36,363 bases of DNA from a virus. The notes beneath the pieces were generated by a model, which was not told the DNA's origin, made no database searches, and saw nothing but the letters and a program-made list of their open reading frames with translations. A program made the translations under genes and the position numbers. Below, piece by piece: positions 3,375 to 36,363 of the stretch. The first letter of the stretch is position 1; each line of letters starts with the position of its first letter. The DNA lies in IMG/VR virus record IMGVR_UViG_3300030380_004858, positions 1 to 36,363 of that record; one strand, given 5' to 3'.

Positions 3375-3811
3375 AGTCTAAGCATTTAGAGTTTAGAATT
3401 GCTCAATGTGATCTAATAGCAAGCCTCTCACCTTGCCCAAGGCGCAAGGTAGGTGCACTCATAGTAGATCCGCTTACTAATAGCATAATCAGTGAGGGCT
3501 ATAACGGCACGCCTCGAGGCTCAAAGCACAAGCTATGTGGAGGACATACCTGCAAAAGGTCTGAGCTTAATATAGTTAGTGGTACTCAGAATGATGTAGG
3601 CTGTCATCATGCAGAGGGTAACGCTATATTAAATGCAGTTAGGGTAGGCACGTCTACACTAAACAAATGGCTATTTGTTAACAGTGAGCCTTGTTTAATG
3701 TGTGCTAAAGCTATTCATCATGCAGGTATATCTGTTATATATTGCCCTAATCATAATGGCTCTGGCATCAAGTATCTATTAGAGAATAATGTAGAGATTA
3801 AGCAGTTTTAG
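3371..3811 (+). CDS. dCMP deaminase (ComE/CDA family)
   Basis: A 146-aa cytidine/deoxycytidylate deaminase. The zinc and catalytic signature is complete: HAE at residues 80-82 (within CHHAEGNA) and PCxxC at 107-111 (EPCLMC). The RRKVGALIVDP segment and the YNGTPRG substrate loop are typical of dCMP deaminases. The enzyme converts dCMP to dUMP in the cytoplasm, feeding thymidylate synthesis; the ThyX gene at 10082 is the matching next step. Translation starts at GTG 3371, overlapping the previous stop. The 3' end overlaps the convergent minus-strand gene by 14 bases (3798-3811). Length is normal for the family. Confidence 0.92.
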   Translation: MKSKHLEFRIAQCDLIASLSPCPRRKVGALIVDPLTNSIISEGYNGTPRGSKHKLCGGHTCKRSELNIVSGTQNDVGCHHAEGNAILNAVRVGTSTLNKWLFVNSEPCLMCAKAIHHAGISVIYCPNHNGSGIKYLLENNVEIKQF

Positions 3812-4907
3812 ACTCGAAGCTGTTCACATAATCGTAAGCACTCCAATCATCAGGACTCATCTGTCTAAGTACATCTACACCCTTTACCATTAGCTCATCA
3901 GTAGTTAATGCACATACTGCTCTTAGTGTCTCGACAAAAGCAGGCACTTTTAAGCGTGGCCCATACCAAGCAGGCTTAAACATGCTTAGGGCTTTATATT
4001 GACTTTTAAACACTGCATGAGCTTTAGGTGACTCCTTTGTATTAAACCAATCGTCTTTCATCTCTGGCATTAATCTAGTAGCTGAGTGCATAACATGAGA
4101 GTAGAAAAAGTCTAGCATCTGATCACCTGTCAGCTCTGAGAGCTTGATGCCTTTAGCCTTAAGAAGCTTCTTTACTTCTGACTCATTGAGATTGTGTGAC
4201 TCACACACTGCATAGAAATCATCTACAGTATCAACAGTGTGCATGTGCCTCTCTACAGGTGCAGGCTGTGCAGGCTTAGGCTGAGGTGGATTAGATGGCT
4301 GAGGTGCAGGCATAGGCTGTGGCTGTGCAGATGGCGCATACTTAACATCATCCTCCCCCAGTGATCGAGTAGTGATTTCAAATCTCTCTTTATCAGTTAA
4401 GGGCATATTATCTGCAATCTCATCAGATGAGTAGATACCAGCAACGGCATCAGGCCACACAGCCCTGCATGCTGCAGTAATGCATCTGGCTCTCAGCATC
4501 TGCAAGGGCATACGCTTCCAATTAGAGTTATTTGTAAGGCCCATCTGATGAGCTTGTTGCATAGTAAAAACTTGCTTGTGTATTGTTTTGCTCGCATCAT
4601 CTGATCTAACACACTCGATAACACAAGCCTCTGCATCATGATGTACAATTTGTATGCGCTCTACAAGTCCTGAGTTATATGCAATCCCTGCAATAGCATC
4701 AGCTCTCATAGTGGGCTTGCCCTTGATAGATGCAGTATTTACCATGACTTGACCCATGTCATAGTTCCAATGATGGCCAAATGAGGCATGACATTTAAGC
4801 AGATCCATAGCATCACGATTATTGTTATTAGACAGCATCAAGGCAATATCCCAAGCATCTTGTCTAGTCTCTGGCACCCATATAGATTTAGTGTTTTGTG
4901 TACTCAT
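3798..4907 (-). CDS. RecT-like single-strand annealing protein
   Basis: A 369-aa protein on the minus strand. The N-terminal half matches the pattern of phage RecT-type annealing proteins: KPTMRADAIAGIAYNSG (about residues 64-80), the FTMQQAHQMGL segment (114-124), and a WKRMPLQMLRAR... PDAVAGIYSSDEIAD block (130-166). A proline-rich linker (about 192-218) leads to a C-terminal domain I do not recognise. RecT proteins coat and anneal ssDNA during phage recombination or replication; the usual partner exonuclease is not visible in this window. A promoter-like element lies at 4939-4971. Transcription converges on the deaminase. Confidence 0.75.
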   Translation of the reverse strand: MSTQNTKSIWVPETRQDAWDIALMLSNNNNRDAMDLLKCHASFGHHWNYDMGQVMVNTASIKGKPTMRADAIAGIAYNSGLVERIQIVHHDAEACVIECVRSDDASKTIHKQVFTMQQAHQMGLTNNSNWKRMPLQMLRARCITAACRAVWPDAVAGIYSSDEIADNMPLTDKERFEITTRSLGEDDVKYAPSAQPQPMPAPQPSNPPQPKPAQPAPVERHMHTVDTVDDFYAVCESHNLNESEVKKLLKAKGIKLSELTGDQMLDFFYSHVMHSATRLMPEMKDDWFNTKESPKAHAVFKSQYKALSMFKPAWYGPRLKVPAFVETLRAVCALTTDELMVKGVDVLRQMSPDDWSAYDYVNSFESKTA

Positions 4908-5340: not shown

Positions 5341-5550
5341 TTAATTGTTTCTCATAAAGTCAAGAGGTGAAAAAGTAATCTCAAGCTGTAATAGATTTGC
5401 TGAGGTGGCGAGCTTCTCAGCTAGATTTAAACTGCATGAGCGATGATTATTAATAATGAGTGATAGGTAATTAATGCTAGTGCCTGATAAGTGAGCTAAG
5501 GCCTGCAATTTAACTGAGCGTTTTAGCTGCTCTCGCTTCTCTGCTGTCAT
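5341..5550 (-). CDS. Cro-like helix-turn-helix repressor
   Basis: A 69-aa basic protein. Residues about 13-50 (VKLQALAHLSGTSINYLS, then a recognition-type helix and SLNLAEKLA) follow the XRE/Cro HTH pattern. Size and position, divergent from the replication initiator across a 142-bp control region with promoters on both strands, fit a Cro-type regulator. It probably binds within 5551-5692 and perhaps at the similar element 4955-4990. No second, CI-like repressor and no integrase are visible, so this alone does not show a temperate lifestyle. Confidence 0.65.
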   Translation of the reverse strand: MTAEKREQLKRSVKLQALAHLSGTSINYLSLIINNHRSCSLNLAEKLATSANLLQLEITFSPLDFMRNN

Positions 5551-5583: not shown

Positions 5584-5631
5584 TTGTTAAACTACTTTTT
5601 ACACACTGTCAAATAAAAGTCTAACAAATAA
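5584..5631 (-). promoter_or_regulatory. Leftward promoter of the repressor operon
   Basis: On the minus strand, TTGACA (5607-5612) and TAACAA (5584-5589) are separated by 17 bases, and the repressor start codon is 34 bases further on. The -35 is consensus, the -10 weak, which suits a regulated promoter. Positions 5596-5631 are a near-copy of 4955-4990. Confidence 0.6.
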
Positions 5632-5643
5632 ATAAAAAAAGTT

Positions 5644-5685
5644 TTGACCATGTGTAAAAGCTCATATATGTATAAGCTGAGGAGG
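5644..5685 (+). promoter_or_regulatory. Rightward promoter and ribosome-binding site of the replication operon
   Basis: TTGACC (5644-5649), a 17-base spacer, then TATGTA (5667-5672) with overlapping TATATG and TATAAG alternatives. A strong GGAGG (5681-5685) precedes ATG 5693 by 7 bases. Downstream of the -35 it shares TGTGTAAAA with the leftward promoter at 5607, hinting at a common operator word. Confidence 0.6.
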
Positions 5686-5692
5686 TAATCAA

Positions 5693-6343
5693 ATGAACAA
5701 ATTAAATGAGTGTGATTTAAGGCGCTCGATAATGAAAAGCACAAGCTTTACACCTGCCACTAAACTTACACTACTCGCCATCCTGCTTAAGGTTGATTGG
5801 GAATCATGGCAGGGCCCTTGCACTATCTCAGAGCTTGAGACACTGGCAGGGCTAAGCAAGCGAACTGTGCAGACTGCTATTAAAAGCTTAACTGATGCAG
5901 GCATTATTTATAGGGCTTGGACTGTGATGAGTGGGCGCAAGCTCCCTGTTATTATTTTATACACTCATAAGATCATGGGGGTGCAAAATCTGCAGGGTGC
6001 AAAATCTTCAGGGTGCAATTCTCACACCTATAGGGGTGCAGGATCTGCGCATAGGGGTGCAAATCCTGCGCAAAAGGGTGCGAAATCTGCACCCTTACAA
6101 TATAACAATATTAACAATACTATTTTACAACCTTATGAACAGCCACAGACTTTAGCTTATAAAGCTATTAATGATGTGGCTCATAACTCATCTCTACCTA
6201 AAGCCCAGCACAAGTTAACTGCTGAGATGATTAAAACCATTGAGAGCCATGCTCAATACTCTGGGCATGATGAGAGAGTAACGGTAGCTCGAGAGCATCT
6301 AAACATTAAACTATTAAAAGGGGGTTTTTATGAACAGCTCTAA
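5693..6343 (+). CDS. Replication initiator, lambda O-like, carrying the origin in its coding sequence
   Basis: A 216-aa protein. The N-terminal part (about residues 19-75, SFTPATKLTLLAILLKVD... TISELETLAGLSKRTVQTAIKSLTDAGII) is a winged-helix domain of the HTH_36/initiator type. Residues about 96-134 are low-complexity (GAKSS, GAGSA, GANPA, GAKSA) because they are encoded by six iterons at 5979-6091. The C-terminal part would contact the helicase loader, by analogy with lambda O. The next gene, a DnaC-like ATPase, overlaps by 14 bases, giving the O/P arrangement. Initiator binding to DNA inside its own gene would melt the AT-rich stretch at 6095-6135 and recruit the host DnaB helicase. Confidence 0.75.
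   Translation: MNKLNECDLRRSIMKSTSFTPATKLTLLAILLKVDWESWQGPCTISELETLAGLSKRTVQTAIKSLTDAGIIYRAWTVMSGRKLPVIILYTHKIMGVQNLQGAKSSGCNSHTYRGAGSAHRGANPAQKGAKSAPLQYNNINNTILQPYEQPQTLAYKAINDVAHNSSLPKAQHKLTAEMIKTIESHAQYSGHDERVTVAREHLNIKLLKGGFYEQL
5979..6135 (+). other. Putative replication origin: six iterons plus AT-rich stretch
   Basis: Six direct repeats of about 16 bp, consensus GGGTGCAAAATCTGCA, start at 5979, 5995, 6011, 6034, 6055 and 6076. The first three abut exactly; the last three are spaced 21 bp, about two helical turns. The array ends in an inverted TGCACCC (6089-6094). It is followed at once by an AT-rich stretch (6095-6135, repeated ACAATA words), the expected unwinding element. The layout mirrors lambda ori inside gene O. 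Confidence 0.75.
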
Positions 6344-7250
6344 TCATGGCATGCAAAAGCTCATTACACCTGAGATTATAAATCAGATCAACAGACTTAA
6401 AGCAATGCGAGCGCAACAGCTAGTCAAGCCTGCCAAACCTAAGCTATCATTCAAACATCTAAACCCATCTAATTTAGAGGCTGAGGGTTTTGTGCATCTA
6501 ACATCATCACGATTTAGCACTAAGCATGTGCCTTATTGTGGGCATTGCAATGATGGATGGGCAGATGCAGGCATAGAGAGAACTGTTAAGCTCTGCTCAG
6601 ATTGTGAGATACCTAGACGCAAGCTTAAACGCCTCAATGATTTAAGCTTACCCTCTGATGCTAATGGTGCTCATCTTGGTATGTATGAATGGGATAGTTT
6701 ACAGCAAAAAGAGAGAATACAGAATCTTTTAGGGTGGCTGATGTATGGGCGTGCTCACTCTCCAAACTCACCTTCTGTTTTAATGTATGGCTCACCTGGC
6801 AACGGTAAAACTACCTTGCATTATGCACTAGCTAAAGAGGCTGTATTCAATGATCATAGAGTTAAGTTTACCACTCACACTGCTTTGCTTGAATCTGTTA
6901 AAAGCACCTTCGGAAGCTCAGAGAAAAACCCTTTATCTGATGGCAAATGGCTTAAGGGTGTAGACCTGCTTTTATTTGATGAGCTAGGTGGGATAGGTGG
7001 AAAGTCAGAGATGAGTAATTGGGCTTACACTCAGTCAGTAGACATCATAGGCCATATTTATGAGAGATGGGCATCAGGCTCACTCTCTGTAGTTATGACT
7101 AGTAACCTCACACCTAAGCAGATTGCTAAATACTTTCAGTATAACAAAGCAGTAGGTTCTAGATTAATTGATATGTTTGGTGAGCCCATACACATGAGCG
7201 GGCCAGATAGGCGAACTAATAAACATCTCAGCAATGTATATGGGTTTTAA
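6330..7250 (+). CDS. DnaC-like helicase loader (AAA+ ATPase) with a zinc motif
   Basis: A 306-aa protein. Walker A is GSPGNGKT (residues 154-161) and Walker B LLLFDE (213-218); later SVVMTSNLTP gives the sensor-1 type asparagine, and SRLIDMFGEPI with a following arginine pair matches the DnaC/IstB class. Upstream there is a four-cysteine motif, CGHC (70-73) and CSDC (89-92), a likely zinc-binding N-terminal element. It probably loads host DnaB at the origin in the preceding gene, as lambda P or DnaC does. The start at 6330 has GGGGG 5-9 bases upstream and lies inside the initiator gene. Confidence 0.82.
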   Translation: MNSSNHGMQKLITPEIINQINRLKAMRAQQLVKPAKPKLSFKHLNPSNLEAEGFVHLTSSRFSTKHVPYCGHCNDGWADAGIERTVKLCSDCEIPRRKLKRLNDLSLPSDANGAHLGMYEWDSLQQKERIQNLLGWLMYGRAHSPNSPSVLMYGSPGNGKTTLHYALAKEAVFNDHRVKFTTHTALLESVKSTFGSSEKNPLSDGKWLKGVDLLLFDELGGIGGKSEMSNWAYTQSVDIIGHIYERWASGSLSVVMTSNLTPKQIAKYFQYNKAVGSRLIDMFGEPIHMSGPDRRTNKHLSNVYGF

Positions 7251-7979: not shown

Positions 7980-8097
7980 TCATTTCGCTCAACGCATATT
8001 AGACATTAAAAGGCGCATAAGAGAACATGATAAACAAGATCACACTGATAGGCAATGTGGGCAAAGATGCAGAGCTAAAACAGACTCAGAGCAGTAA
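7873..8097 (+). CDS. Possible small helical protein overlapping RHH and SSB genes
   Basis: An open frame of 74 codons from ATG 7873 (or 7852) bridges the 47-base gap between the RHH and SSB genes and overlaps both. The part unique to the gap encodes a plausible amphipathic helix (QRILDIKRRIREHDK), and the first half (LTELEKLKMSLTQCQVYYNFW) also looks protein-like. However, much of its length overlaps other coding frames and the ribosome-binding site is weak. I list it as uncertain. Confidence 0.3.
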   Translation: MLTELEKLKMSLTQCQVYYNFWNSQRHLPRAAESANHFAQRILDIKRRIREHDKQDHTDRQCGQRCRAKTDSEQ

Positions 8098-8467
8098 GTT
8101 TGCACGCTTTACATTAGCTACATCTAGCAATTATAAAAACAATGCAGGTGAGTGGGTTAAAGAGACTGAATGGCATAACATCAAAGTTTGGGGGCTCACT
8201 GCTGAGAGAGCTATAGAAAGATGCAGAAAAGGTCAGCTAGTTTTTGTTGAGGGTAAGCTTGTCTCTTATGAACATGAGGGGCGTAGATTATGGGAAGTCA
8301 AGGCAGATGTATTTAGAGTGCTGACTAAAGATCAGGCACAGACTATGCACCCATCATCCGAGCCCATAGCACCTGATCAAACTACTGTAGAGCCCTCTAA
8401 CCCTTGGAGTTACCCAATCCCTAAAAACAGGCCAGACAGAAGAGCTGGCTGGCCGATAAAGGTATAA
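8027..8467 (+). CDS. ssb: Single-stranded DNA-binding protein
   Basis: A 146-aa SSB. The OB fold spans about residues 1-105, with the family's opening INKITLIGNVGKDAELKQT, then FTLATSSNYKNNAGEWVKETEWHNIKVWG and GQLVFVEGKLVSYEHEGRRLWEVKADVF. It would protect ssDNA during phage replication and work with the RecT-like protein. The C-terminus is unusual: it ends basic (RRAGWPIKV) and lacks the acidic DDxIPF-type tip through which cellular SSBs recruit partners. The upstream sequence has only a weak AAGAGA ribosome-binding site. Confidence 0.9.
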   Translation: MINKITLIGNVGKDAELKQTQSSKFARFTLATSSNYKNNAGEWVKETEWHNIKVWGLTAERAIERCRKGQLVFVEGKLVSYEHEGRRLWEVKADVFRVLTKDQAQTMHPSSEPIAPDQTTVEPSNPWSYPIPKNRPDRRAGWPIKV

Positions 8468-10726: not shown

Positions 10727-11223
10727 ATACAAGCAAAGCAGATGCAATTAGAAAAGCTATCGAGCTAAAGCAGATAGGCTACACTAACAAGAGCATAGTT
10801 AAACAGCTTGCAGATTTAGGTTACTATAACCCTACTACTCTTAAGCCATGGACTGCAGGCATGATACAGCATAGACTACATGATCTAAATGCTGAGAGTC
10901 AGAATGACAGTAAAGCCAGGTTAGAGGCTATTAAGCTGAGAGAGCAGGGCTATAGAATAAAGCATATAGTTTTAGCATTAAAGTCTGATGGATATATAAA
11001 CCTCAGAACAGGTAACCCATTTGGGCTCTATTCAGTAAATCAATGGTTAAAGGGCATCGAGCCTGTAGCACTTGCTAAAGCTAAAATACTAGCTAGAGAG
11101 CTTGCAGACTGTGGCCTATATCCTGCTAAAATCTCGAGGTCATTAGCAGAGATGGGCTATACTAATTTAGATACAGGTAAGCCTTACTCTAAATCCGGCA
11201 TAGAGAATTGGATTAACAAGTGA
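10723..11223 (+). CDS. Protein of three tandem HTH-like repeats
   Basis: A 166-aa protein. ATG 10723 is chosen because GGAGG (10708-10712) is 10 bases upstream and the start forms an ATGA with the ThyX stop; ATG 10714 would be too close. Three repeats of about 47 residues (about 6-52, 64-110, 117-165) share the pattern A..L...GY....I...L...GY.N..TG.P......I..WL. This is the helix-turn-helix layout of the recombinase domain next to serine recombinase catalytic domains, but no catalytic domain is present. Likely a DNA-binding protein, perhaps recognising a repeated site; the function is unknown. Confidence 0.65.
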   Translation: MNTSKADAIRKAIELKQIGYTNKSIVKQLADLGYYNPTTLKPWTAGMIQHRLHDLNAESQNDSKARLEAIKLREQGYRIKHIVLALKSDGYINLRTGNPFGLYSVNQWLKGIEPVALAKAKILARELADCGLYPAKISRSLAEMGYTNLDTGKPYSKSGIENWINK

Positions 11224-35535: not shown

Positions 35536-36363
35536 ATGGCTATTTCATTAGGTGGATTTTCAGGTGGTGGTGGTGGAGCAGGCTCAGACACTCTTGATGA
35601 TGTTACAGGCAGAGGAGCAACAACAACAAATGCAATCACCGTTGGTGGTGTCTCCATCGGTTCAGCTTTTAGTCTGCCTACTTCCGATGGTTTAGCAAAT
35701 CAAGTTCTTCAAACAAATGGAAGTGGCTCTTTAAGCTTTGCAACTTTGGACTTCACTGGAGGCCTTGAATACAAAGGCTCATTCAATGCAACAGCAGGTA
35801 CTCCAAGTCTAGCAACTGCTCAAAAGGGCGACTATTACAAGATTGATACAGCCGGAACAATTTATGGACAAACATGGGCCGTTAATGATTCACTGATTAT
35901 AAATGCAGATATGGGCGGTTCAATCACAAATAGCAAGATTGATAAGATCGACAACACCGAGCCGACAAATGTTCTGATCACTACTAATAATTTAAGCGAT
36001 TTGGACAACGCTACAACAGCACGAACGAATCTTGGACTTGGCAACGCAGCAACGCTGACCACAGGTGTGGCGAATGGAAACGTGATTGTAGCGGACTCTA
36101 CTGGACTTCCTGCGATTGATGGTAGTCAATTGACAGGCATAACAGCGACCGATTCAACTAAGTTGGCTATTGCTAACAACTTAAGCGATTTGGACAACGC
36201 TACAACAGCACGAACGAATCTTGGACTTGGCAATGTTGCAACGCTGACAACAGGTGTGGCAAATGGAAACGTAATTGTAGCTGACTCTACTGGACTTCCT
36301 GCGATTGATGGTAGTCAGTTGACAGGGATCACAGCGACCGATTCAACTAAGTTGGCTATTGCT
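35536..36363 (+). CDS. Tail fibre, 5' part (continues at position 19)
   Basis: 276 codons from ATG 35536 to the window end with no stop; AAGGAG sits 9 bases before the ATG. The N-terminal part (residues 1-40) has GGFSGGGGGAGSDTLDDVTGRGATTT, an attachment-type element. A middle domain (about 75-140) contains LEYKGSFNATAG... KGDYYKIDTAGTI, a pattern seen in fibres of other phages. Two complete 63-residue repeats start at 35986 and 36175, the second ending exactly at base 36363. Reading on from position 19 gives two more repeats, a partial one and the C-terminal domain. Confidence 0.88.
   Translation, partial: MAISLGGFSGGGGGAGSDTLDDVTGRGATTTNAITVGGVSIGSAFSLPTSDGLANQVLQTNGSGSLSFATLDFTGGLEYKGSFNATAGTPSLATAQKGDYYKIDTAGTIYGQTWAVNDSLIINADMGGSITNSKIDKIDNTEPTNVLITTNNLSDLDNATTARTNLGLGNAATLTTGVANGNVIVADSTGLPAIDGSQLTGITATDSTKLAIANNLSDLDNATTARTNLGLGNVATLTTGVANGNVIVADSTGLPAIDGSQLTGITATDSTKLAIA
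35986..36363 (+). repeat. 189-bp in-frame tandem repeats of the fibre (units 1-2)
   Basis: Units begin at 35986 and 36175, each 189 bp (63 codons) with the NLSDLDNATTARTNLGLG opening and a VIVADSTGLPAIDGSQLTG core. The same units continue at 19, 208 and, partially, 397. Because the window ends inside the array, the true copy number could be larger than five. Confidence 0.9.
36346..36363 (+). repeat. 18-bp terminal direct repeat (circular overlap)
   Basis: ACTAAGTTGGCTATTGCT at the window end is identical to 1-18. Merging the two keeps both the fibre reading frame and the 189-bp repeat spacing (36185 + 189 corresponds to 29). Confidence 0.9.

Follow-up and report, generated by a model that had tools for sequence, protein, structure and literature searches.

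In phage lambda, iterons and an AT-rich region within the O gene form the replication origin (PMC7466680). The lambda origin (gene O, loader gene P; NC_001416; for the Stx phages P27 and 933W, see PMC7466680) comprises palindromes with arms of about 6 bp and a 5-bp spacer that succeed one another at steps of 20 to 24 bp, with an AT-rich element beside the array and the helicase loader gene next. Among iteron plasmid origins and RepA_N initiators, PLE RepA likewise binds semi-palindromic repeats, but these are situated in non-coding DNA and the initiator family differs from that of the protein described here (PMC7145576).

The locus analyzed here belongs to a 36,363-bp virus record, the whole of which is referred to below as the window. 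As in lambda, palindromic iterons with 6-bp arms and a 5-bp spacer lie inside the coding sequence of the initiator, an AT-rich element adjoins them, and a helicase loader gene is found immediately downstream. In contrast to lambda, the arms are GGTGCA/TGCACC instead of TCCCTC/GAGGGA, steps of 16 to 17 bp come first, the initiator is an HTH_36 protein without a match to Pfam Phage_rep_O, and the loader is an AAA+ DnaC-like protein where lambda has P. A winged-helix initiator followed by TGCA-type arrays with steps of 17 and 21 to 24 bp is likewise present in SfV, Pseudomonas phi2, and Aeromonas vB_AsaM-56 (annotated replication or O-like proteins); these initiators are distant in sequence from the window protein, and the three records have no origin annotated at the array. 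The best reading of the window array is that of a lambda-type intragenic iteron origin belonging to a widespread TGCA iteron class, to which the initiator would bind and from which replication would start. Positions 5979 to 6139 very probably serve as the phage's theta-type replication origin within the initiator gene.

Iteron array, AT-rich element, and neighboring genes

The features of the region are as follows (window coordinates).

3798-4907, strand opposite to the initiator gene: RecT-like gene, upstream of the initiator gene
5341-5550, minus strand: small HTH_3 gene, divergent from the initiator gene
5693-6343, plus strand: initiator gene, 216 aa (winged helix, residues 6-98; iteron-encoded linker, residues 97-169; C-terminal domain, residues 170-216)
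5979-5994, no strand assigned: iteron 1, GGGTGCAAAATCTGCA, peptide GVQNLQ, frame 1
5995-6010, no strand assigned: iteron 2, GGGTGCAAAATCTTCA, peptide GAKSS, frame 2
6011-6029, no strand assigned: iteron 3, GGGTGCAATTCTCACACCT, peptide GCNSHT, frame 0; weakest core, partly lost in relatives L123 to L125
6034-6049, no strand assigned: iteron 4, GGGTGCAGGATCTGCG, peptide GAGSA, frame 2
6055-6070, no strand assigned: iteron 5, GGGTGCAAATCCTGCG, peptide GANPA, frame 2
6076-6094, no strand assigned: iteron 6, GGGTGCGAAATCTGCACCC, near-complete palindrome (13/14), adjoining the AT-rich element
6095-6139, no strand assigned: AT-rich element (82% AT) with repeats of about 9 bp, ACAATATTA; predicted unwinding element
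6330-7250, plus strand: DnaC-like AAA+ helicase loader (phrog_50, E = 9.5e-25; IstB_IS21, E = 4.4e-8), overlapping the initiator gene by 14 bp
8027-8467, plus strand: single-strand DNA-binding protein (SSB) of the same module (Pfam SSB, E = 3.7e-24)

An earlier, sequence-only reading of this DNA had described six repeats, three abutting and three at 21 bp, followed by an AT-rich element within the initiator coding sequence and by a downstream DnaC-like loader. The six copies were confirmed at 5979 to 6094, where they start at the positions listed above and succeed one another at steps of 16, 16, 23, 21, and 21 bp, the first three copies abutting and the 23-bp step joining the two groups. An imperfect palindrome is the more accurate description of the unit: aligned on copy 6, it reads GGGTGCA-N5-TGCACCC, with 13 of the 14 specified bases matched by copy 6, 11 by each of four other copies, and 10 by copy 2 (copies 2 and 3 are themselves imperfect palindromes). 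Sites matching at least 11 of the 14 bases number eight across the whole 36 kb, five of them inside the 116-bp array. The array is placed just past the DNA-binding domain of the initiator-like open reading frame, about 290 to 400 nt into the gene.

The AT-rich element and the loader were found as described. Positions 6095 to 6139 are the most AT-rich 45-mer between 5600 and 7300, and the loader gene (PHROG phrog_50, Pfam IstB) is directly next. The GC skew, which had been proposed as a check of the site, gave it no support, with a detrended whole-window minimum at 10,893 (10.9 kb), away from the array, and was therefore not used as proof of an origin; a sign change of the skew at fourfold-degenerate sites near 5.6 kb is a weak hint at most. 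Between the divergent HTH_3 gene and the initiator gene there is also a 17-bp inverted repeat (5597 to 5659; 88%, 29-nt gap), a candidate operator. At the contig ends, 189-bp repeats (10 to 454 and 35984 to 36363) are accompanied by an 18-bp identical terminal overlap; these repeats are probably part of a tail-fiber-like gene, and the record is possibly circular, or else interrupted within the 189-bp repeat.

The best Pfam match of the initiator is HTH_36, a winged helix (E = 1.5e-5), and its matches to the PHROG "replication initiation O-like" families are weak (phrog_678, 1.4e-5; phrog_391, 1.2e-4). Phage_rep_O, the lambda O family, was not among its Pfam hits up to E = 0.1. AlphaFold predicts a winged helix at residues 6 to 98 (pLDDT about 90), a disordered iteron-encoded stretch (pLDDT below 50 at residues 97 to 124 and 128 to 169), and a small C-terminal domain at residues 170 to 216 (pLDDT about 73). 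Among PDB structures, the closest folds belong to generic winged-helix regulators rather than to proteins that initiate replication. The lambda O/P logic proposed for the locus is supported at the sequence level by the winged helix, the intragenic palindromes, the AT-rich element, and the loader, but not by the protein family of the initiator.

DNA signal and encoded peptide

With a 16-bp step between them, each of the three abutting copies falls into a different reading frame. Synonymous-codon shuffles of the initiator gene yielded a mean of 0.5 sites matching at least 11 of the 14 bases, against the 5 observed, and none of 5,000 shuffles reached 5; recoding by the phage's own codon usage had the same outcome. 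Four relatives (L122 to L125; 73 to 85% identity) keep the arrangement of the array, so that the repeats are retained where the protein is, with some decay of copy 3 in L123 to L125 and of the GG of copies 5 and 6 in L124 and L125. It is the DNA, not the protein, that is conserved in the array. The iteron-encoded peptide would form a disordered linker joining the DNA-binding and C-terminal domains, and the coding sequence of such a linker can be set by a DNA signal. The suggestion that the low-complexity peptide is dictated by the DNA is thus strongly supported by the three frames within the gene and the synonymous-codon tests, together with the frames and spacings in other initiators presented below.

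Recurrence of the TGCA palindrome in other initiators

An exact scan of IMG/VR for GGGTGCANNNNNTGCACCC returned at least 120 stretches; among the matches listed, 96 of the 119 encoded open reading frames formed one similarity group, the initiators. A two-iteron pattern was then scanned against genomes and IMG/VR, and initiators were picked with a profile of the N-terminal domain. In this motif-ascertained set, the palindrome is present in 200 winged-helix initiators falling into 61 clusters below 50% identity. Many two-iteron genome matches were collagen-like or REP-like repeats rather than origins, and matches were kept only with the initiator profile. Those retained include Morganella, Photorhabdus, Pasteurellaceae, Enterobacter, Burkholderia, Azospirillum, Streptomyces, and Ammoniphilus, as well as Ruminococcus, Synergistaceae, and Chloroflexi among metagenome-assembled genomes, whose assignments can be wrong. 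The view that this phage has its own iteron sequence was wrong: the palindrome is common to many unrelated phages (61 clusters, several bacterial phyla).

With the exact retrieval sites masked, the cluster representatives held 147 sites matching at least 11 of the 14 bases, whereas synonymous shuffles predicted 42 and gave at most 54 in 300 runs (masking corrects only partly the ascertainment of initiators chosen by motif); 45 of 57 representatives were individually above 95% of their shuffles, again with exact sites masked. Two or more frames are used in 42 of the 61 representatives, the commonest reading being frame 2 (GAxxAP; 119/197 sites). Distances between neighboring sites cluster sharply around 17 bp and around 22 to 23 bp, and of the 130 spacings no longer than 24 bp, 106 are not divisible by three. 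Examples of the layout are 17, 17, 22, 23, 22, 23 (L271); 17, 17, 22, 23, 22 (L274); 17, 17, 23, 22, 23 (L327); and 17, 17, 22, 23 (L161). The short steps all come first in 13 of 15 two-regime arrays; the remaining two have a separate pair of sites, at 23 to 24 bp, upstream of the array. The two spacing regimes are therefore a recurrent design.

In 51 representatives, the roughly 50 nt past the last iteron exceed the gene mean in AT content by 15 points (about 9 standard errors), after which AT content falls back to that mean. The element has a 12-bp periodicity (match of 0.368 ± 0.017 versus 0.288 in a control stretch) and is made of words such as GAACCATCAAT. In individual cases (e.g., L274, L310, and L342), the AT-rich elements contain 11- to 12-bp repeats around AACCATCAATAG, which in some phages are read in shifting frames. 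Downstream of the scanned representatives, the genes encode, among others, DnaC-like loaders, a DnaB helicase, and short proteins to which no function is assigned.

We defined the TGCA iteron class in this analysis by at least two TGCA-N5-TGCA palindromes after a winged helix, with steps of 16 to 17 and then 21 to 24 bp, and the window array has this form. No description of the TGCA iteron was found in open-access papers; a paper on plasmid RA3 matched through a primer only. Dispersed GGGTGCA-type palindromic pairs resembling REP/BIME elements also occur outside initiator genes in Thiobacillus, Gallionellales, and Isosphaeraceae genomes (L132 to L134, L136 to L139, L143, L144, L162 to L164, L186, L194, and L195). 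The complete palindrome is also present in three Bro-N antirepressor-like genes (L015, L035, and L048), where it falls on a conserved GVQxLHPI peptide, either by chance or because the motif has a second use.

Homologues were also fetched by the DNA-binding domain alone, using as query the N-terminal approximately 100 residues of one initiator (L300); an alignment of diverse domains had too few conserved stretches to serve as a retrieval query. Of the 218 phage records matched, 17 were read alongside lambda with a de novo array finder (6-bp arms, 5-bp spacer), which as a control recovered the annotated lambda iterons (TCCCTC..GAGGGA; steps of 20, 24, and 23 bp). Arrays were found in SfV (GGTGCA-like; 24, 21, 21, 24), Pseudomonas phi2 (17, 17, 17, 21, 23, 22), Aeromonas vB_AsaM-56 (22, 23, 22), mEp554 (AGTGTC..GACACC; 23, 22, 23), S1249 (ATGCCA..TAGCAC; 21, 21, 24), BUCT708 (24, 21, 24), and SfIV/YeP2 (CGTCA..TGACG; 15-bp steps). 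Since other spacers score about equally in several arrays, confidence in the 5-bp spacer is high for lambda and the TGCA class but lower for the other arrays. The same finder gave no clear array in the N-terminal homologues of SF6, PPF1, C. difficile AR1074-1, and Phab24, and the array is thus not universal to the fold. Loaders or DnaB adjoin several of the N-terminal homologues. Position and step length are thus recurrent, whereas the arm sequences vary, a pattern to be expected of initiators that each recognize their own iteron.

An arginine at the position of R57 in the recognition helix was considered as a specificity determinant. Among 69 distinct domains, 18 had the arginine and a TGCA array, 12 the arginine without the array, none the array without the arginine, and 39 neither. 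The association gave P values of 0.003, 0.06, and 0.12 after clustering at 90, 80, and 70% identity, respectively, and since support falls in this way, Arg57 is a suggestive lead and not proof. Arginine at this position is probably common in the fold.

Origin model and alternative explanations

In the mechanism we envisage, initiator dimers would bind each GGGTGCA-N5-TGCACCC palindrome through the winged helix (residues 6 to 98), and the close 5' copies (16 to 17 bp) and wider 3' copies (21 to 23 bp) would together build up a nucleoprotein array. Opening would then follow in the AT-rich element directly 3' of the last iteron, and the DnaC-like loader (6330 to 7250) would deliver the host replicative helicase, as in lambda.

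The palindromes might instead be operators through which the winged-helix protein, as a regulator and not an initiator, represses or activates transcription from sites in its own gene. The best PDB relatives of the domain are indeed transcriptional regulators, and iteron initiators often autoregulate; yet the sites lie hundreds of nucleotides inside the gene and not at a promoter, the AT-rich element adjoins them, the helicase-loader gene follows, and the layout matches the known O-gene iterons of lambda, so that we regard this reading as improbable. Recognition of the array by a host protein rather than the phage initiator would fit the recurrence of one iteron sequence in phages of several host phyla. 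However, the arms differ between homologous initiators in related hosts, and no TGCA array accompanied a domain lacking Arg57 among the 69 N-terminally fetched domains (an association weak after clustering), which makes host recognition very improbable.

That the repeats are only a low-complexity GAxxAP linker spread by in-frame duplication might be suggested by the predominance of frame 2, but it has almost no likelihood given the three frames within one gene, the short spacings, most of which are not multiples of three, the synonymous-codon tests, and the palindromic symmetry; as the sole explanation, in-frame duplication is refuted by frame use, spacings, and codon tests. The preferred reading remains that of an intragenic replication origin bound by the phage initiator. 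Its architecture is of the lambda type, and the TGCA iteron is a member of a widespread class, not unique to this phage.

To our knowledge, most temperate phages have no mapped origin. A palindrome marking the origin in the initiator genes of many families would permit direct origin prediction from sequence, and proteins annotated as "helix-turn-helix" or "hypothetical" would become readable as initiators. The array further provides a clear instance in which a DNA signal is superimposed, in each of the three frames, on sequence coding for a disordered linker. We lean slightly toward the broader view that one iteron code (TGCA-N5-TGCA with GGG/CCC flanks, 17- and then 22/23-bp steps, and a 12-bp-periodic AT-rich element), overlaid on coding in any frame, is common to winged-helix initiators that otherwise differ widely, from phages and prophages of several bacterial phyla. 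The initiators of unrelated co-resident prophages could then recognize each other's origins. Because iterons normally set replicon specificity, yet this one is shared across distant phages, such cross-recognition between prophages is directly testable.
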